Below are positions 3,245 to 64,000 of a stretch of DNA of 64,000 bases, in pieces. The notes below the pieces were generated by a model that saw only the letters and a program-made list of their open reading frames with translations, was not told where the DNA came from and did no database searches. The stretch is taken from NCBI GenBank assembly GCA_018714445.1, contig DVNK01000039.1, positions 62,001 through 126,000 on the forward strand, given 5' to 3'. A program made the translations under genes and the position numbers. Origin of the DNA: Candidatus Fimadaptatus faecigallinarum (GTDB lineage: Bacteria > Bacillota > Clostridia > Christensenellales > Aristaeellaceae). Position 1 is the stretch's first letter. Each line of letters opens with the position of its first letter.

Positions 3245-3750
3245 GTTCGATCGCCTTCATATTGGAGCTACGGCCCGCTTACGCCCGAGCGAGTTCAACT
3301 ACTTTCACATTGAAGCTACGCCCCACGCGCCCGAGCAGGCTCAATCGCCTGCACTTTGAAGCTACGCCCGCGCGCACCCGAACAGGCCCAACCGCCTGCA
3401 CTTTGAAGCAATGCCCCACGCACCCGAGCTGGCCCAACCGCCTGCACTTTGAAACAATGCCCCACGCACCCGAGCTAGCCCAACCGCATGCATACTGAAG
3501 CTATGCCCACGCGTCTGAGCAGGCCCAACCGCCTGCACTTTGAAGCCATGCCCCACGCACCCAAGCAGGCCCAACCGCATGCACATTAAAGCCATGCCCC
3601 ACGCACCATAACAGGCTCGACCGCCTACACACTGAAGCTACGCCCGTGCGCGCCCGAACAATGTCGACTGCCTGCACTTTGAAGCCCTGCCCTTCGCGCG
3701 CCCGAGCAGGCTCAACCGCCTGCACATTAAGCTACTGCCCGCGCGCCCAA
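3245..3750. repeat. Degenerate tandem array, about 47-bp unit, about 11 copies
   Basis: Recurring (A)ACCGCCTGCACTTTGAAGCYAYGCCCCACGCRCCCGAGCAGGCCC; the CTTTGAAG core recurs about every 47 bp. Confidence 0.9.
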
Positions 3751-22192: not shown

Positions 22193-23302
22193 ATGAAAGA
22201 GATCGGCATAGGCGTGATCGGCTGGGGATTTATGGGCCGCACGCACACGTTTGCGATTAAGACGATGCCGCTGCACTACGATTTGGACTTCAAGCCGCGC
22301 CTGGTGGGCGTGTGCTCGCGCCGGCTCGAACAGGCGCAGCGCGCCTGCGACGAACAGGGTTTTTCGTTCGCGACCGACGACTACCGCCGGCTGCTGGCCG
22401 ACCCGGCGATAGACGTCGTATCGATTTGCACGCCCAACGCGCTGCACAAGCAGATGGCGCTGGACGCAATAGCCGCCGGCAAGCACGTATACATAGACAA
22501 GCCCGTCTCGACCGACTACGCCGGCGCGCGCTGCATAGCCGACGCCGCCCGCGCCGCCGGTGTAAAGGGCCAGGTCGCGCTGAATAATCGCTTCTTCCCC
22601 GCCACGATGAAGGCGCATGAGCTGATTACATCGGGCAGGCTTGGGCGCGTGACGTCGTTTACCGCCGAATACCTGCACTCGGGCTCGGTCGACCCGGAGC
22701 GCCCGGTAGGCTGGAAGCAGCGCGCGGACGTATGCGGCGGCGGCGTACTGCTCGACCTGGGCAGCCATGCGCTCGACCTGGTGATGTGGATGTGCGGCGA
22801 GGTGCGCGACATAAACTGCGTCACGCAGACGCTCTACCCCTCCCGCCCCACGCCCGAAGGCGGTCGCACCTCGGCGCTCGGCGATGACCGCGCGCTGATG
22901 ATGCTGCGCCTGAAGAGCGGCGCGGTCGGCACCGTGGACGCCTCCAAGATAGCCACCGGCACCGACGATGAACTGAACCTGAGCATATACCTGACCGGCG
23001 GCGCGATACGCTACTCCAGCCTGACCGGCGATTACCTGGACGTGTACGACTGCGCCTCGGCCGCAGGCGGGTTCACGCATGTGCACTGCGGCGGGCGCTA
23101 TCCCGCGCCGGGCGGCAGCTTCGTGCCCGCCAAGAACGCCATCGGCTGGATACGCGGCCATGTGCACTCGTACTACACGTTCCTGGACGCGGTGGCCCAT
23201 GACGGCCCGTGCAGCCCGTCGCTGGACGAAGGCGCATACCTGCAACTGGTCATGGAAAAGGCGTACCAAAGCGCCGCGGAGGGAGGCTGGATCGGCGTAT
23301 GA
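22193..23302 (+). CDS. Gfo/Idh/MocA family oxidoreductase
   Basis: IGVIGWGFMGRTHTFAI, IDVVSICTPNALHKQMALDAIAAGKHVYIDKPVSTD. Confidence 0.94.
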   Translation: MKEIGIGVIGWGFMGRTHTFAIKTMPLHYDLDFKPRLVGVCSRRLEQAQRACDEQGFSFATDDYRRLLADPAIDVVSICTPNALHKQMALDAIAAGKHVYIDKPVSTDYAGARCIADAARAAGVKGQVALNNRFFPATMKAHELITSGRLGRVTSFTAEYLHSGSVDPERPVGWKQRADVCGGGVLLDLGSHALDLVMWMCGEVRDINCVTQTLYPSRPTPEGGRTSALGDDRALMMLRLKSGAVGTVDASKIATGTDDELNLSIYLTGGAIRYSSLTGDYLDVYDCASAAGGFTHVHCGGRYPAPGGSFVPAKNAIGWIRGHVHSYYTFLDAVAHDGPCSPSLDEGAYLQLVMEKAYQSAAEGGWIGV

Positions 23303-25179
23303 GCGCGCTGCTGGAACATCTGGATGAGATAATGGTATCGCTCCGGCCGCGCAGCGAGTTCCGCCCGCTGCCGCCCGCATCCGACCGCGAGGCCTGGTCC
23401 GCCGTGCGCCAGAAGACCGCCGCTACCGCGATTGGGCGCGCCGAAAAGTACGTGGGCTTTGCCTGGCCGGTCATATACGCCACCGACATAATGCTGGCCG
23501 CGACCGGCGGCGATGCGCGCGCGTTTGCGAGCAAGTACAACTACCGGCGCACGGCGCTGAGCGCGTTGGCGCTGGCCGAGGCGCTCGAGGGCAAGGGCCG
23601 CTTTCTGGGCGACATAATCAACCTGTGCGTCATGATCTGCGAGGAGACCGCCTGGACATTGCCCGAGAACCTGACCCGCCCCGACGGCACGCGCGACTGC
23701 ATGGCCGACATAGAGCGCCCCACACTCGATATAGGCGCGGCGCGCACCGGCGCGCTGCTGGCGACCGCGCTCTACCTGCACCGCGACAAGTTCCGCGAGG
23801 CGTCGCCGCTGATATCGGTGCGCGTTGAGCGCGAGATTACGCTTCGGGTAATCGACCCGTTTCTGAACGCGGCGCAGCTCAACTACGTGCGCGGCGGCGA
23901 GGCCATGACCGCCGAGGGCATAAAGGAGTGCCTGGTCGCGCTGCTGCTGACCGAGCGCGAGGACCGCTACCGCTGGGGCGGCGTCAAGCGCGCTATGAAG
24001 CTGCTGGACGCGTGCCTGGACGCGCTGCCCGGCGACGGCGGCATACCCGGCGACATGGGCGCGTTCGAGGCGGTGGCGGGTTGCCTTATGGAGGCGCTGG
24101 CGCTGATTAACGAGGCCTCCGGCGGCAATACCAGCTTCTTTACGATATCCGCACTGCGGTGCATGGGCGAGTACATCGTGGGCAACCACATCGACCTGGA
24201 TTACTTCAACTGCCCGGGCGACTGCCCCGCGCACCTCAGGCTGGACGCGGGCCTGGCATACAGGTGCGGCGAGCTGATCTGCTCGGATGAGCTGTGTTCG
24301 CTGGGCGCGTACCTGCTCAGCCTCAGCGACGAGGGCGTGTCGGCCGCGGCCACGCTGCTGCGCGGCGCGCGCACCGCGCTGGGCGAGAGCGCGATGCTGC
24401 GCCATGACGCCCGGCCGCCAATGCCCATGGACTACTACCTGCGCAGCGAGGCGCTGCTGTGCGCGCGCGAGCGCACCGGGTCGTCGAGCGGCTTCTTTGT
24501 GAGCCTGTGCGGCGGCGCGAACCTGCCCGGCAGTCACGCCGACTCGGGCAATATGGCGCTGTACTGCGACGGCGAGCCGGTGCTGCCCGACCTGGGCGAG
24601 ATAGAGTACGCCCGCGCGCTCAACCCCGACGAGCGCGCCGCGCTGTGGGAGACCCAGTCGCAGTATCACAACCTGCCGGTCATAAACAATCAGCCCCAGT
24701 CGATGGGCGCACAGTTCCAGGCGATAGAGCCGATCTGGGAGCTGGCCCCCGAGCGCTCGCGCGCGACGCTGGACATAAGCCGCGCCTACCCCGACGAGGC
24801 CGGCGTGCTGACCTGGCAGCGCACCGTGGCGCTGATGCGCAATGAGCGCCCGTGCGTGCGGCTATGGGAGATCGCCGAGTTCAAGGGCGATTCAAACGAT
24901 ATCGAATACAACTTCATAACGACGCACCGCCCCTACCTGGGCAGAAACAGCGTGGAGCTGGGCAACGTGGTCATGTCCTGGGAGACCGAGGGCAAGCTCG
25001 AATGCGACGTGCAGGAGCTGCCGCCGCGCCAGTCCAGCGCCTACGACCCCGAGGGGCTGTATGGCAAATGGCTGCTCACGCTGTGCGGGCGCACGCTGTT
25101 CCGCATGGTGCTCACGCAGCGCGCCGCGCCACGGCGGTTCGACGTGTGCTTCACGTTCACGCGCAAGTCAAACGCATAA
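23299..25179 (+). CDS. Heparinase II/III-like family protein
   Basis: ATGA overlap with upstream gene; ICEETAWTLPEN; GSHADSGNMALYCDGEPVLPDLGEIEYARAL...QYHNLPVINNQPQ. Confidence 0.78.
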   Translation: MSALLEHLDEIMVSLRPRSEFRPLPPASDREAWSAVRQKTAATAIGRAEKYVGFAWPVIYATDIMLAATGGDARAFASKYNYRRTALSALALAEALEGKGRFLGDIINLCVMICEETAWTLPENLTRPDGTRDCMADIERPTLDIGAARTGALLATALYLHRDKFREASPLISVRVEREITLRVIDPFLNAAQLNYVRGGEAMTAEGIKECLVALLLTEREDRYRWGGVKRAMKLLDACLDALPGDGGIPGDMGAFEAVAGCLMEALALINEASGGNTSFFTISALRCMGEYIVGNHIDLDYFNCPGDCPAHLRLDAGLAYRCGELICSDELCSLGAYLLSLSDEGVSAAATLLRGARTALGESAMLRHDARPPMPMDYYLRSEALLCARERTGSSSGFFVSLCGGANLPGSHADSGNMALYCDGEPVLPDLGEIEYARALNPDERAALWETQSQYHNLPVINNQPQSMGAQFQAIEPIWELAPERSRATLDISRAYPDEAGVLTWQRTVALMRNERPCVRLWEIAEFKGDSNDIEYNFITTHRPYLGRNSVELGNVVMSWETEGKLECDVQELPPRQSSAYDPEGLYGKWLLTLCGRTLFRMVLTQRAAPRRFDVCFTFTRKSNA

Positions 25180-34809: not shown

Positions 34810-35400
34810 GCTTGGCGCGCTGTTCATGCGCGCGGGGTGATTGTTGCCCTGGTTTGAGTTACGTGGTTCGGCGTGCCGCTAATGCGCGGGGTGACTGTTG
34901 CATTGGCTCGCGCGATGTCGTTTGGCGCGCTGTTCATGCACGCGGAATGACTGTCGCCCTGGTTCGCGCGATGTGGTTCGGCACACTGTTCATGCGTGCG
35001 GGGTGATTGTTGCCCTGGTTCGCACGACGTGGTTTCGCGCACTGTTCATGCGCACAGGGTGACTGTTGCCTTGGTTCGCGCAACGTGGCTTGGCGCGCTG
35101 TTCATGCACGCGAAATGACTGTCGCCCTGGTTCGCGCGATGTGGTTCGGCACACTGTTCATGCGTGCGGGGTGATTGTCGCCCCTGGTTCGCATGACGTG
35201 GTTTGCGTGCCGCTAATGCGCGCAGGGTGACTGTTGCCTTGGTTCGGGCAACATGGTTTGGCGCGCTGTCCATGCACGCGTGGTGATTGTCGCCCTGGTT
35301 CGCGCAATGTGGTTCGGTGCGCTGTTCATGCACGCGTGGGTGATTGTCGCCCTGGTTCGCGCGACATGGTTTGGCGCGCCGCTAATGCGCGCAGGTCGAT
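34810..35400. repeat. Degenerate tandem array, about 56-bp unit, about 10-11 copies, with 168-bp trimeric higher-order repeat
   Basis: CGCGCTGTTCATGCACGCGGGGTGACTGTCGCCCTGGTTCGCGCGATGTGGTTTGG repeated; subtype order recurs every 3 units. Confidence 0.92.
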
Positions 35401-44896: not shown

Positions 44897-46039
44897 TCAC
44901 CTGCACAAAAAGTCGCACAGTTCGCTCACATCGTCCAGCGAATGCGGATGATGCCCGCACGACGGCTTTATGTTCAGCAGCAGCAGTCCGCCCGCCGCCG
45001 CAAACGCGTCGGCAAACGGCCGCCCATTCTCCTCAAACGGCACGAGATCGTCCGCGCCGCCTATGACCATAGCCAGCGGTATGCCCAGCCGCGCCAGTTC
45101 CGCGCCCCGCTTGACCGGGCGTGCCTGCACGTTGGACTGGATCGTGGCCTCGGTCGCGCCGTAGCACGCAAGGCATTCGCGCCACTCGCGCTCAGCGCCC
45201 ACGCCCCTGCCGCGCCCGCCGGGCCAGCTCAACACGTCCAGCACCGGCGCGTCCAGGTACAGCTTGCCCACGCGCTCGGGAAAGCTCAGCGCAAAGTTGA
45301 CCGCGTACAGTCCGCCGCGGCTGAAGCCTATCAGCACCGGGTGCGCGCCCAGTCCGCGCTCCCGCGTCAGATATTCATGAAACATGCGCATGCGCTCCAC
45401 TGCCCATGGACAGCCGTACTTGTCCGACAGCCGTATGTACGCCAGATGATACCCGCGCCGCACCATCTCCAGATCGCACTGCGCGAACGCGTCGAAGAAT
45501 TCCGCCCGCCATGCAAACGGCCTGCCCGGCAGCGGATCGCGCGGCGTCACCAGTATGCACTCCAGCCCGTCCAGCGTGAAGTCCTCGCGCGCATAGCCGT
45601 GCCATTCGCTCATTCGCACGTTCGACGCTTTGGCGTTTGAGGCGGATGGTGGCGTCGCCGTGTCGGCGACATATGAGGCATCCGGCGCTTTAGCCGCGTC
45701 CGTGCCGCATGTAACGGTCGATGTCGTCGCCGTGTTGGCAACATATGAGGCGTCCGGCGTTTTGGCCGCGTCTGTGCCGCATGTAACAGCCGATGTCGTT
45801 GCCGTGTCGGCGGCATATGAGGCGTCCGGCGCTTTGGCCGCGTCTGTGCCGCATGTAACAGATGGTGGCGTTGCCATGTTGGTGGCATATGAGGCATCCG
45901 GCGCTTTGGCCGCATCCGTGCCGCATGTAACGGCTGATGCACTTGCCGTGTTGGCGGCGCATGCAGCGTCAAGCGGCTTTACCGCCGCGCCTGAAGTATT
46001 GAGCGGCGCGCCCTCTGCAGCGCTTGCCCCGGCGCTCAT
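44897..46039 (-). CDS. Alpha/beta hydrolase with repeat-derived N-terminal extension
   Basis: HPVLIGFSRGGLYAVNFALSFPERVGKLYLDAPVLD; GADDLVPF; CGHHPHSLDD. ATGA overlap with pap; N-terminal about 140 aa consist of 24-aa repeats. Confidence 0.8.
   Translation of the reverse strand: MSAGASAAEGAPLNTSGAAVKPLDAACAANTASASAVTCGTDAAKAPDASYATNMATPPSVTCGTDAAKAPDASYAADTATTSAVTCGTDAAKTPDASYVANTATTSTVTCGTDAAKAPDASYVADTATPPSASNAKASNVRMSEWHGYAREDFTLDGLECILVTPRDPLPGRPFAWRAEFFDAFAQCDLEMVRRGYHLAYIRLSDKYGCPWAVERMRMFHEYLTRERGLGAHPVLIGFSRGGLYAVNFALSFPERVGKLYLDAPVLDVLSWPGGRGRGVGAEREWRECLACYGATEATIQSNVQARPVKRGAELARLGIPLAMVIGGADDLVPFEENGRPFADAFAAAGGLLLLNIKPSCGHHPHSLDDVSELCDFLCR
45640..45990. repeat. 72-bp tandem array, 4-5 copies, in-frame at the N-terminus of the hydrolase ORF
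   Basis: CATATGAGGC(A/G)TCCGGCG...GCATGTAAC repeats at exact 72-bp spacing (45671, 45743, 45815, 45887, about 45959). Confidence 0.92.
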
Positions 46040-58108: not shown

Positions 58109-58696
58109 ATGCGCGCGCTCATATTCGATGTGGAAGCCAATGGCACGCCTCAGCCGCAGGTGTGCCAGTTGGCATATCTGATCTCGGACGGCGCGCGGCT
58201 TGAGGCGCGCAACTTCTTCTTTCGCGTGAGCGCCATGAATCCCCACGCCTACAAGGTGCATCACCTGAGCATGAAGGCGCTGGATAAGCTGTCGGGCGGG
58301 CGCACGTTCGCCGACCACGCCCGCGAGATCTGCCGCGACTTCTACTGGGCCGAGGTGTACATAGGCCACGGCGTCAGCGGCGACATGGACTACCTGCGCC
58401 GCGAGTTCGAGCGGCTGGCGCTGGCGCTGCCCGAGCGCCGACGCTTCTGCACCATGCGCCACTTTACCGGGCGCTGCGGCGGCGAACTGCCCGGCGGCAA
58501 GCCCAAGCCGCCCAGCCTGAGCGAGCTGTGGACGCATTACGGCCTGACCGAGCCCGAAATAGCCACGTTCGCCGCGCAGACCTTCGGCGCAGGCGCGGTG
58601 GCGCACGACGCGCGCTTTGACGCGGCGGCGACGTATCTGGCGCTCAGGCGCGCACAGGCCGCGGGAGAGCTGCCCCGCGGCGTGCTGGACGACTGA
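58109..58696 (+). CDS. DEDD-type 3'-5' exonuclease (DnaQ/RNase T-like)
   Basis: ALIFDVEANGTPQPQVCQLAYL; GHGVSGDMDYLRREF; AHDARFDAAATYLAL; abuts upstream stop. Confidence 0.85.
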   Translation: MRALIFDVEANGTPQPQVCQLAYLISDGARLEARNFFFRVSAMNPHAYKVHHLSMKALDKLSGGRTFADHAREICRDFYWAEVYIGHGVSGDMDYLRREFERLALALPERRRFCTMRHFTGRCGGELPGGKPKPPSLSELWTHYGLTEPEIATFAAQTFGAGAVAHDARFDAAATYLALRRAQAAGELPRGVLDD

Positions 58697-59510
58697 GCCG
58701 TGCGTGAACTTCCGGCTTGCATGCTGCAAGGCCAACCGGCCTTATCCCGGCACAGGCGCATTCCCGCCACAAGCGCATTCCCGGCACAGGCGCATTGCGG
58801 CCAACAGCCAGCCCTGCATCATGACGGGCAAACGCAGCGGGCCACATGCCGCCCACTGAGCCGCGCGTGAACTTACGGCTTGCACACCGCAAGGCCAATC
58901 GGCCTTACCCCGGCACAAGCCCATTCCAGGCATAATTGTATTCCAGGCACAAGCGCATTGCGGACAGCGGCCAGCACGGCATCATACCGGGCAAACGCAG
59001 CGGGCCACATGCCGCCCCACTGAGCCGCGCGTGAGCTTCCGGTTTGCATGCTGCAAGGCTAACCGGCCTTATCCCCGGCACAGGCGCATTGCGGCCAACG
59101 GCCAGCACTGCATCATGCCGGGCAAACGTAGCGGGCCACATGCCGCCCACTGAGCCGTGCGTGAACTTACGGTTTGCACACCGCAAGGCCAATCGGTCTT
59201 TCCCCGGTACAGGCGCATTGCGGCCAATGGCCAGCACAGCATTATGCCGGGCAAACGTAGCGGGCCACATGCCGCTCCACTGAGCCGTGCGTGAACTTAC
59301 GGTTTGCACACCGCAAGGCCAATCGGTCTTACCCCGACACAGGTGCATTGCAGCCAACGGCAGCACAGCATATTGCCGGCCAACCCAGAGGGCCACATGC
59401 CGCTCCACTGAGCCGCGCATGAACTTACGGTTTGCATGCCGCAAGGCCAATCGGTCTTACCCCCCGGCACAAGCCCATTCCCGGCACAAGCTCATCCCCG
59501 GCGCGACCGC
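58692..59510. repeat. 129-165-bp tandem array, 6 copies, with nested 17-bp subrepeats, beginning at the exonuclease stop codon
   Basis: CTGAGCCG(T/C)GCGTGAACTTACGG(T/C)TTGCA at about 58694, 58856, 59021, 59150, 59279, 59408. Confidence 0.93.
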
Positions 59511-59679
59511 AAACCCAACGCCGAGCCAGCCAAGCCACGCGGCAATCTAATGATAAGTCGGTAAATCGAGCCGGCCGCAAGTCCTTTGGACCGCCGGCCG
59601 GCCCATTGCATTTTGCACATGTCGGCAGGCGCAGGCCTGCCACGGCGCGCTCCACCGCGCGCAGATGGTGAGGATGATT

Positions 59680-61665
59680 ATGAACTACTCGCGCGACACA
59701 CTCAAGTACCTAAAGCAACTGCGCCGCCAGTACCCCACGGCGCGCCAGGCCTCCGCCGAGATAATCCGCCTGCGCGCGGTGCTCAAGCTGCCCAAGGGCA
59801 CCGAGCACTTCCTGTCAGACCTGCACGGCGAGAGCGCCGCGTTCCTGCACATGCTGCGCAACGCCAGCGGTGTCATCAAGCAAAAGACCAACGACCTGTA
59901 CCGCGACATACTGCCCACTCATGAGCGCGACATGCTGTGCACGCTGGTGTACTACCCCGAGGAAAAGCTGTCGCTGCTTAAAAAGCAGGGCGCGGTCAAC
60001 GCCGAGTGGTACCGGATAACGATACTGCGCCTGGTCGAGCTGGCGCGGCTGATGGCGGTCAAGTACACCCGCACTCATGTGCGCGCGGCGATGCCCGAGG
60101 ACCTGGGCGAGTTGATGGAAGAACTGCTGCTGCGCGAGGACGTGCACGACAAACAGGCGTACTACTCCGAGACAGTGGACGCGATAATCGAATGCGGCCA
60201 GGCCGACGCCGTGATAATCGAGCTGTCGCGCGTCATACAGTACCTGTCCATCGACCATCTGCACATCATAGGCGACATATACGACCGCGGCCCGCATGCC
60301 GATCTGATAATGGACGCGCTGGACAATTACCACAACGTCGACGTACAGTGGGGCAATCACGACATCGTCTGGATGGGCGCGGCAGCCGGTTCGCAGGTGT
60401 GCATCGCGCAGGTGCTGGTAACTCAGCTCAAGTACGGCAACCTCGACGCGCTGGAAGTGGGATATGGCATATCGCTGCGCGCGCTGGCCACGTTTGCCGC
60501 CGGCGCGTATGCGTCCGATCCCTGCGCCGAGTTCATGCCCAAGCGCCTGGGCGGCGCCGACTCCGGCGAGGACGACATGGAGCTGGCCCGCATGCACAAG
60601 GCCATGGCGATAATCATGTTCAAGCTCGAATGCCAGCTGCTGCGCCGCCACCCCGAGTACGGCATGGACGACCGCCGGCTGCTGGAGCGGGTCGACTTCG
60701 GCGACGGCACGCTTGAGATCGACGGCGTGCGCCATGCGCTCACGTCCAACGCGTTCCCCACGGTCGATCCGGCCGACCCAACCGCGCTGACCGAGGGCGA
60801 GCGCGAACTTATGTACCGGCTCCAGATAGCGTTCGAGCACTCCGAAAAGCTCCAAAAGCACGTCAAGTTCCTGTTCGCGGCGGGCAGCATGTACCTGTGC
60901 TGCAACGGCAACCTGCTGTACCACGGCTGCATACCGATGAACGCCGACGGCTCGCTGATGCAGTTGCCGATAGACACCCCCGACGGCCGGCCCACCGGGC
61001 GCGCCGCGCTGGACTGCGCCGAGCGGATCGCGCGCCAGGGCTATTTTGCGCGGGCGGGTTCGCGCGCGCGCCGCGACGGTCAGGACATGATGTGGTATCT
61101 GTGGTGCGGACCGGTGTCGCCGCTGTTCGGCAAGTCGCGCATGGCCACGTTCGAGCGCTACTTCATAGCCGACGAGACCACATGGACCGAACAGAAGAAC
61201 CCGTACTACGCGCTGATGCACGACGAATCGGTCGCACGCGGCATACTGGAGGCGTTCGGACTCAGCCCCGACACCGGCCATATAATCAACGGCCATGTGC
61301 CGGTGCGCGTCAAAAAGGGCGAAAGTCCCGTGCACGCCGGCGGACGGCTGCTGGTGATAGACGGCGGGCTGTCGCGCGCATACCAGGGCGTGACCGGCAT
61401 AGCGGGCTACACGCTGATATTCAGCTCGCACGCGCTGCTGCTGGTGGCGCACCAGCCGTTCGAGTCCACCACGCGCGCGATCACCGACGAGCAGGACATC
61501 CACTCGGTACAGACCGTGGTCGAGCAGATGCCCCGCCGGCTGCGCATACTCGACACCGATCAGGGCGCCCGGCTCCAGGAGCGCATCGACGACCTGACCT
61601 GTTTGATAGACGCGTATGCCTCCGGCGCGATAAAGGAGGGCGGCCTCGACGAGCGCGAGATGTGA
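59680..61665 (+). CDS. fbp: Class III fructose-1,6-bisphosphatase
   Basis: PKGTEHFLSDLHGESAAFLHMLRNASGVIKQK; HIIGDIYDRGPHADLIMD; WGNHDIVWMGAAAG; INGHVPVRVKKGESPVHAGGRLLVIDGG. Confidence 0.96.
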   Translation: MNYSRDTLKYLKQLRRQYPTARQASAEIIRLRAVLKLPKGTEHFLSDLHGESAAFLHMLRNASGVIKQKTNDLYRDILPTHERDMLCTLVYYPEEKLSLLKKQGAVNAEWYRITILRLVELARLMAVKYTRTHVRAAMPEDLGELMEELLLREDVHDKQAYYSETVDAIIECGQADAVIIELSRVIQYLSIDHLHIIGDIYDRGPHADLIMDALDNYHNVDVQWGNHDIVWMGAAAGSQVCIAQVLVTQLKYGNLDALEVGYGISLRALATFAAGAYASDPCAEFMPKRLGGADSGEDDMELARMHKAMAIIMFKLECQLLRRHPEYGMDDRRLLERVDFGDGTLEIDGVRHALTSNAFPTVDPADPTALTEGERELMYRLQIAFEHSEKLQKHVKFLFAAGSMYLCCNGNLLYHGCIPMNADGSLMQLPIDTPDGRPTGRAALDCAERIARQGYFARAGSRARRDGQDMMWYLWCGPVSPLFGKSRMATFERYFIADETTWTEQKNPYYALMHDESVARGILEAFGLSPDTGHIINGHVPVRVKKGESPVHAGGRLLVIDGGLSRAYQGVTGIAGYTLIFSSHALLLVAHQPFESTTRAITDEQDIHSVQTVVEQMPRRLRILDTDQGARLQERIDDLTCLIDAYASGAIKEGGLDEREM

Positions 61666-62049: not shown

Positions 62050-62760
62050 GTTTGTTTTATCCACAGCTTTGACAGCACCGTGGTACATTCGCGACGTCGG
62101 CCGCATGCCCGCGACCGTTCACACCGCGCCCGCGCCGCCAGGTAGTTCAGCGCCAAAACATCCGCACGGCGCGACTCCCGTCTTGCGCAACTTGTCCACA
62201 GTTTTGACAGCACCGTGGTACATTCGCGCCGTCGGCCGCATGTCCACGACAATTCGCACCGTAACCGCGCCGCTAAACCATCCAGCGCCCAAACATCCGC
62301 ACGGCGCTACTCCAGTCTTGCGCAAATTGTCCACAGCTTTGACAGCGCCATCGTACATTCGCGCCATCGGCCGCATGCCCTCGACCGTTCACACCGCACC
62401 CGCACCGCCAGGCCGTTCAGCGCCCAAACATCCGCACGGCACAACTCTCGTATTGCGCGACTTGTCCACAGCTTTGACAGCGCCATCGTACATTCGCACC
62501 GTCGGCCACATGTCCACGACAATTCACACCGCGCCTGCGCTGCCAAACCATCCAGCGCCCAACATCCGCCCGGCGCAACTCCCGTATTGCACGACTTGTC
62601 CACAACTTTGACAGCACCATCGTACATTCGCGCCGCCCGCCGCATGCCCGCGACCATTCACACCGCGCCCGCACCGCCAGGCCGTTCAGCGCCCAAACAT
62701 CCGCACGTCGCAACTCCCGTCTTGCGCAACTTGTCCACAGCTTTGCGCACTGCGCCGGTT
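62050..62760. repeat. 135-bp tandem array, 5 full copies plus partial, alternating A/B subtypes, each with DnaA-box-like nonamer
   Basis: TTATCCACA at 62057, TTGTCCACA at 62192, 62327, 62462, 62596, 62731 (spacing 135,135,135,134,135). Confidence 0.95.
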
Positions 62761-62820: not shown

Positions 62821-62850
62821 TTGACAGCGCCGCCCATCGTTTAATAAAAT
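62821..62850 (+). promoter_or_regulatory. Sigma-A-like promoter for Na/Pi transporter gene
   Basis: TTGACA - 18 nt - TAAAAT. Confidence 0.7.
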
Positions 62851-62932: not shown

Positions 62933-64000
62933 ATGTCGCTTACCATGACAATGTCACTGCTGGGCGGTCTGGCGCTGTTCCTGTACGGCATGAAGATGAT
63001 GGGCGAAGGCCTTGAAAAGGCTGCCGGCGATAAGCTGAGGCGGCTGCTTGAGTCGCTCACGCGCAATCCGATAATCGGGTTGCTGGTTGGCGTAGTGTTC
63101 ACGATGATAATACAGTCCTCATCCGCGACCACGGTCATGGTCGTGGGCTTTGTAAACGCCGGTTTGCTGGATCTGATGCAGGCAACCGGCGTTATTTTGG
63201 GCGCGAACATAGGCACGACTGTGACCGCGTGGATAGTGGCCGGCTTCCAGGCGATGACGTTCATGCCGCTGATACTGCTGGTGGGCGTGGCGATGATAAT
63301 GTTCGTAAAGCGCCTGAAGCTCCAGCGGATAGGCCAGATAGTCGCCGGATTCGGCATGCTGTTCGTGGGCATGGACATGATGAAAAACGCAATGAGCCCA
63401 CTGGCTGAATCGGCCGAGTTCGCACGCCTTATGACCACGTTCTCCAATCCGCTGCTGGCGATGCTGATGGGCGTGGCGATAACGGCGGTCATACAGTCGT
63501 CGTCGGCGTCGGTGGGCATACTGGAGCTGCTGGCATTGCAGGGCCTGGTGCCGCTGGAGACCAGCCTGTACATAATCATGGGCACGAACATAGGCACATG
63601 CGTCACCGCTATGCTGGCCGCGATAGGCGCGACCCGCACCGCCCGGCGCGCGGCGCTGATCCATCTGATGTTCAACGTGTTGGGCACGCTGGTGGTGTTC
63701 GTGCTGGTGAGCGTGCTGCCGGTGGCCAACTGGCTCAGCGCGATAGAGGATCCCGCGCTGCAGATAGCCGTGGCGCACACGTCGTTTAAGGTGTTCGAGG
63801 TCATGTGCTTCATAGCGCTGCGCGGATACCTGGTAAAGCTGGTCATGATACTCGTGCCCGGCGACGACTCGCGCACCGAGGAGCGCCGGCTCAAATACCT
63901 CGACGACCGCATACTGTCCACGCCCCCGATAGCCGTCGCCCAGATCTCCAAGGAGATCGAACGCATGGGCGATATAGCCGTGGACAACCTCAGCCGCGCC
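62933..64000 (+). CDS. Na/Pi cotransporter family protein, truncated by window edge
   Basis: ATG after AAGGAG; LLGGLALFLYGMKMMGEGLEKAAGDKLR; VFTMIIQSSSATTVMVVGFVNAG; GANIGTTVTAW; second QSSSASVG repeat. Confidence 0.93.
   Translation, partial: MSLTMTMSLLGGLALFLYGMKMMGEGLEKAAGDKLRRLLESLTRNPIIGLLVGVVFTMIIQSSSATTVMVVGFVNAGLLDLMQATGVILGANIGTTVTAWIVAGFQAMTFMPLILLVGVAMIMFVKRLKLQRIGQIVAGFGMLFVGMDMMKNAMSPLAESAEFARLMTTFSNPLLAMLMGVAITAVIQSSSASVGILELLALQGLVPLETSLYIIMGTNIGTCVTAMLAAIGATRTARRAALIHLMFNVLGTLVVFVLVSVLPVANWLSAIEDPALQIAVAHTSFKVFEVMCFIALRGYLVKLVMILVPGDDSRTEERRLKYLDDRILSTPPIAVAQISKEIERMGDIAVDNLSRA

Follow-up and report, generated by a model that had tools for sequence, protein, structure and literature searches.

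The non-coding gap between fbp and a Na+/Pi cotransporter gene contains a tandem array which, judged from its sequence, is probably a minisatellite of the sort usual in this genome, one whose repetition has multiplied genuine DnaA-box sequences; passive titration of DnaA by the array is possible. The favoured reading, to which a probability of about two in three is given, is that the array arose locally, as did several hundred intergenic minisatellites of this genome, and that its DnaA boxes were multiplied as passengers rather than built or kept for titration. The array is 689 bp long within the window, the 64,000-nucleotide stretch of DNA that was analysed. The features of this region are:

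59665-61665, + strand: fbp, Firmicute-type fructose-1,6-bisphosphatase, upstream neighbour (Pfam PF06874 FBPase_2, E 2e-273)
62057-62745, no strand: non-coding minisatellite, five complete 135-bp units followed by 15 bp of a sixth (repeat analysis)
62057-62065, + strand: DnaA-box nonamer 1, TTATCCACA, left edge of the array (exact motif scan)
62192-62200, + strand: DnaA-box nonamer 2, TTGTCCACA (exact motif scan)
62327-62335, + strand: DnaA-box nonamer 3, TTGTCCACA (exact motif scan)
62462-62470, + strand: DnaA-box nonamer 4, TTGTCCACA (exact motif scan)
62596-62604, + strand: DnaA-box nonamer 5, TTGTCCACA (exact motif scan)
62731-62739, + strand: DnaA-box nonamer 6, TTGTCCACA; unit homology ends at 62745 (exact motif scan)
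62821-62850, + strand: sigma-A-like promoter of the Na/Pi gene, TTGACA-18-TAAAAT, outside the array (11/12 consensus positions; consensus match only)
62933-64000, + strand: Na+/Pi cotransporter gene (Na_Pi_cotrans), downstream neighbour, running off the window (Pfam PF02690, E 7.6e-67)

The five full units measure 135, 135, 135, 134 and 135 bp, and TRF reports a period of 135, 5.1 copies and 83% matches. A 270-bp dimer receives a higher TRF score than the 135-bp monomer, and the copies are partly of two kinds (1, 3 and 5 versus 2 and 4), so that they represent fewer than six independent samples. The first-pass annotation had described six regularly spaced nonamers here, and this is confirmed: six TTRTCCACA sequences lie on the + strand between 62057 and 62739, at spacings of 135, 135, 135, 134 and 135 bp. 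They are the only ones in the window when both strands are scanned, where shuffled sequences would give 0.36; as the sites are repeats of one another, this excess over chance counts as a single event rather than six. The left edge of the array is exactly nonamer 1, while unit homology stops 6 bp past nonamer 6. As both edges fall at a box, a 15-bp direct repeat that includes the nonamer delimits the array.

The array shows what marks a minisatellite: similar units, between 10 and a few hundred bp long, that follow one another head to tail in non-coding DNA. Other identities were considered and rejected. Reading frames cross the array, but the 134-bp unit shifts the frame, and a codon-usage scan classes the region as intergenic. 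A comparison with Rfam gave no match up to E = 1, which argues against an RNA family, and the 135-bp unit has no second copy or relative elsewhere in the genome, as a dispersed repeat or mobile element would. Nor is the array part of oriC, since the dnaA-dnaN locus, with the box-rich region upstream of it, lies on contig C8 and the array on contig C17.

The nonamers are probably true DnaA boxes. The genome (2.62 Mb in 65 contigs) encodes one DnaA, which is B. subtilis-like, carries the GGRDHTTV helix-turn-helix DNA-binding signature and has the B. subtilis-type DnaA structure 8btg as its nearest solved structure (E 6e-153). The gene after dnaA, recognised by eye from its translation, appears to be dnaN. 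Upstream of dnaA, the presumptive oriC (L008 2430-2780) contains TTTTCCACA, TTGTCCACA, CTATCCACA, TTATCCACA, ATATCCACA, CTGTCCACA and TCATCCACA. Because both nonamer forms of the array occur in this presumptive origin, in a genome with a canonical DnaA, the nonamers can be read as DnaA boxes, as had been proposed from the window alone, and binding of DnaA to the array is likely. A connection to the actinobacterial form of the box had also been drawn; judged by fbp, the closest relatives belong to the Clostridia rather than to the actinobacteria. Exact TTRTCCACA occurs 64 times genome-wide, compared with 16 occurrences of the reversed control motif, and is often extended to TTRTCCACAGC. The total is unremarkable, counts ranging from 20 to 88 across 25 genomes of the family and order.

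Tandem arrays are a pervasive feature of this genome. A census using TRF and a simple codon-usage gene caller found 49 intergenic arrays in 223 kb, making up 28% of intergenic bases and having unrelated units; these figures are rough, as the window itself and stretches close to box sites were part of the sample. Extrapolation from the sampled stretches gives a genome total of about 575. Thus, to have an intergenic array is the norm here. Further minisatellites in the window lie, for example, at 3306-3740, 34820-35395, 45653-45956 and 58692-59479. Under a stricter definition of an array, the density is 18 per 100 kb, among the highest of 20 family genomes sampled, the other 19 having mostly 0-5 per 100 kb and three of them 10-21. 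Array-rich relatives in this sample are G015, G005 and G017. In their non-coding head-to-tail copies of about 50-200 bp, 80-90% identity and partial last copy, such arrays are like bacterial VNTR loci, for instance the MIRU of M. tuberculosis. They differ in that their units are unrelated between loci rather than members of one dispersed family, in their density of about 18 per 100 kb and, for the array in the window, in the presence of DnaA boxes.

Two other arrays in the genome bear boxes. One, at C9:69424-69955 (L009), has a 92-bp unit and six boxes, one of which is TCGTCCACA. The other, at C17:22900-23346 (L017; bounded alternatively at 2404-2857 of that locus, C17:22903-23356), has a 64/128-bp unit and seven boxes, including CTATCCACA and TTGGCCACA; a decayed eighth, CTATCTACG, is possible at its right end, near L017 2857. 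If arrays sample intergenic DNA randomly, 2.1 box-bearing arrays are expected, a value obtained by scaling the 17 TTRTCCACA of non-array intergenic DNA to the array unit sequence. Three are observed (P = 0.34), or four when the two L017 half-units are counted apart (P = 0.16). Base composition alone would predict only 0.29-0.45 (P 0.003-0.011 for three). Since the observed number is close to 2.1 and above that expected from composition, the boxes look as though they were drawn from the pool of intergenic boxes and not enriched in arrays beyond it; the frequent TTRTCCACAGC extension fits a pool of real boxes. The same comparison means that the passenger reading needs this pool as its source, the composition-only expectation being too low.

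It had been claimed that the flanking sequence diverges much more than the nonamer, which overstates the case. Of the nine columns of the nonamer one varies, and conservation equal to or greater than this is seen in 12 of the 135 nine-column windows of the unit, a count that takes in the box itself; TTTGACAGC, GTACATTCGC and AACATCCGC are fully invariant across the five full copies. The corresponding numbers are 50 of 94 in the L009 array and 7 of 68 in the L017 array, so that the conservation ranks of the box are unremarkable in all three and decisive in none. The L017 array is the most suggestive of them: its boxes lie about 64 bp apart, and the box is common to alternate half-units whose identity is only about 50%.

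Relatives were compared in two ways. Downstream of fbp, no array was present in nine close fbp relatives (62-66% identity; L053-L061), and the family searches met no genome of the same genus. A family-wide search for triple-box patterns covered 309 genomes at spacings of about 60-90 bp, 309 at about 90-120 bp and 195 at about 120-150 bp. Most matches lay outside tandem arrays, and several were dense and origin-like. Tandem box-bearing arrays were the three of this genome, the only one among the 195-309 to have as many, together with G010 C72, G074 C55 (with CTGTCCACA) and G008 C17 (with ATATCCACA). The reversed-motif control (triple, 60-150 bp) gave 0, 5 and 0 matches; the ones within tandem arrays came from G106 and G230, and these arrays may be coding or intergenic. 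Box arrays therefore recur in the family but are rare. The G010 array (L186 12127-12996), from another genus, has 207/175-bp units with ten canonical or near-canonical boxes, in which TGTGGATAA and TGTGGACAA alternate 68 bp apart within each unit. It is apparently intergenic and lies off the dnaA contig, in a genome otherwise poor in arrays (no other in 74 kb sampled), and is the best argument that some box arrays may be functional. A literature search for DnaA boxes in intergenic tandem repeats found nothing closer than the systems compared here.

The passenger reading is favoured by the density of unrelated arrays, the uniqueness of the unit, the number of box arrays (3 versus 2.1), the plain conservation ranks, the edges at a 15-bp repeat and the nine fbp relatives that have no array at this site. 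Against it stand the low expectation from composition, the three box-bearing arrays found together in this genome alone, the ten boxes of array-poor G010 and the box shared by half-diverged 64-bp half-units at C17:22.9 kb. A direct repeat at both edges is the usual mark of duplication between short direct repeats, which suggests a pair of boxes as the seed. Such repeats may have been supplied by a pair of DnaA boxes roughly 135 bp apart in the gap between fbp and the Na/Pi gene, with slippage or unequal recombination between them duplicating the spacer; later rounds, in part as a 270-bp dimer, would have increased the copy number. DnaA would probably be able to bind the resulting boxes, and a weak titration of DnaA may follow. 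The first-pass annotation had itself cautioned that any motif of an ancestral unit would be repeated, and this caveat describes the array better than the dedicated cluster it qualified.

The best surviving alternative, although an unlikely one, is that the array is a selected DnaA sink, its six boxes and the approximately 13 of the other two arrays lowering free DnaA and delaying initiation. In B. subtilis, joint removal of six DnaA-box clusters (DBCs) outside oriC leads to early initiation, which is partly relieved when one is put back (PMC5295017). Like these clusters, the array lies in non-coding DNA outside oriC, in a member of the Bacillota whose DnaA is of the B. subtilis type, and it has several consensus boxes (six exact TTRTCCACA), identical to those of the presumptive oriC. 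The three arrays together hold 15 of the 64 exact TTRTCCACA in the genome, and G010 has a box-bearing array as well, as does G074, there with CTGTCCACA. Unlike the B. subtilis clusters, the array has isolated boxes within a tandem repeat, each 135-bp unit contributing a single box and the DNA between boxes holding no site with at most one mismatch, rather than the dense packing associated with cooperative DnaA binding. Neither conservation of the boxes beyond their surroundings nor an orthologous cluster in relatives was found, the number of box arrays fits passive sampling and the genome total of boxes is ordinary. Furthermore, only eight of the 269 regions bound by B. subtilis DnaA in vitro were seen bound in vivo (PMC4447404). 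Of the proposal that the array is a datA- or DBC-like control cluster, the part that stands is that its boxes are probably genuine; a dedicated cluster is disfavoured by the commonness of arrays, their passive-sampling number, the plain conservation, the wide, unphased spacing and the lack of an orthologue. Titration by the array is possible, whilst selection for titration is not supported by the present analysis.

A better DBC candidate than the array is C16:23424-23497 (L013 2425-2497), where four DnaA boxes lie in 73 bp. Beside it is a tandem array with units of about 34 bp that carries AAATCCACA on the opposite strand (L013 2035-2305; C16 approximately 23034-23304). A further stretch of 400 bp, box-rich and non-tandem, lies at C33:14085-14485 (L024 3085-3485), away from dnaA and upstream of a kinase gene of the FGGY family; it has TTGTCCACA, TTATCCACA and several TTTTCCACA. 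A broader and rather improbable extension of the sink idea is that some Clostridia repeatedly evolve adjustable DnaA sinks through the expansion of box-bearing minisatellites, whose copy number would tune the timing of initiation and would change by slippage instead of point mutation.

It is very unlikely that the array regulates the Na/Pi gene, with DnaA or another protein on the repeats modulating the promoter 76 bp past its right end. That promoter is a strong match (TTGACA-18-TAAAAT, 62821-62850), and TTGACAGCGCC is common to the unit and to its -35 region; no complete promoter match is found within the units, however, and similar arrays occupy many unrelated gaps. DnaA-regulated promoters usually carry boxes at, or overlapping, the promoter. 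Each unit contains TTTGACAGCRCC, in most copies followed by ATCGT (e.g. 62066-62085), which resembles the -35 region (TTGACAGCGCC...CATCGT, 62821-62841); an old copy of that region may thus be part of the unit.

A datA-like site of DnaA-ATP hydrolysis or a DARS-like site is barely credible: the array resembles E. coli datA in having five or six boxes within about 1 kb (PMC5295017), but datA requires a fixed box spacing around an IHF site (PMC4585315), whereas here the spacing is even and wide, with one box per 135 bp (135/10.5 = 12.9 turns, so that box faces rotate on the helix), which argues against an IHF-organised geometry; the position is not conserved, and the array is of tandem-repeat origin.

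If the boxes are passengers only, repeated DnaA boxes in repeat-rich genomes need a genome-wide baseline before they are labelled as control elements. If they do act as a sink for DnaA, changes in repeat copy number could be a means by which replication timing evolves. In both cases the genome, which has some 500 intergenic minisatellites with unrelated units, is well suited to studying how such arrays originate.
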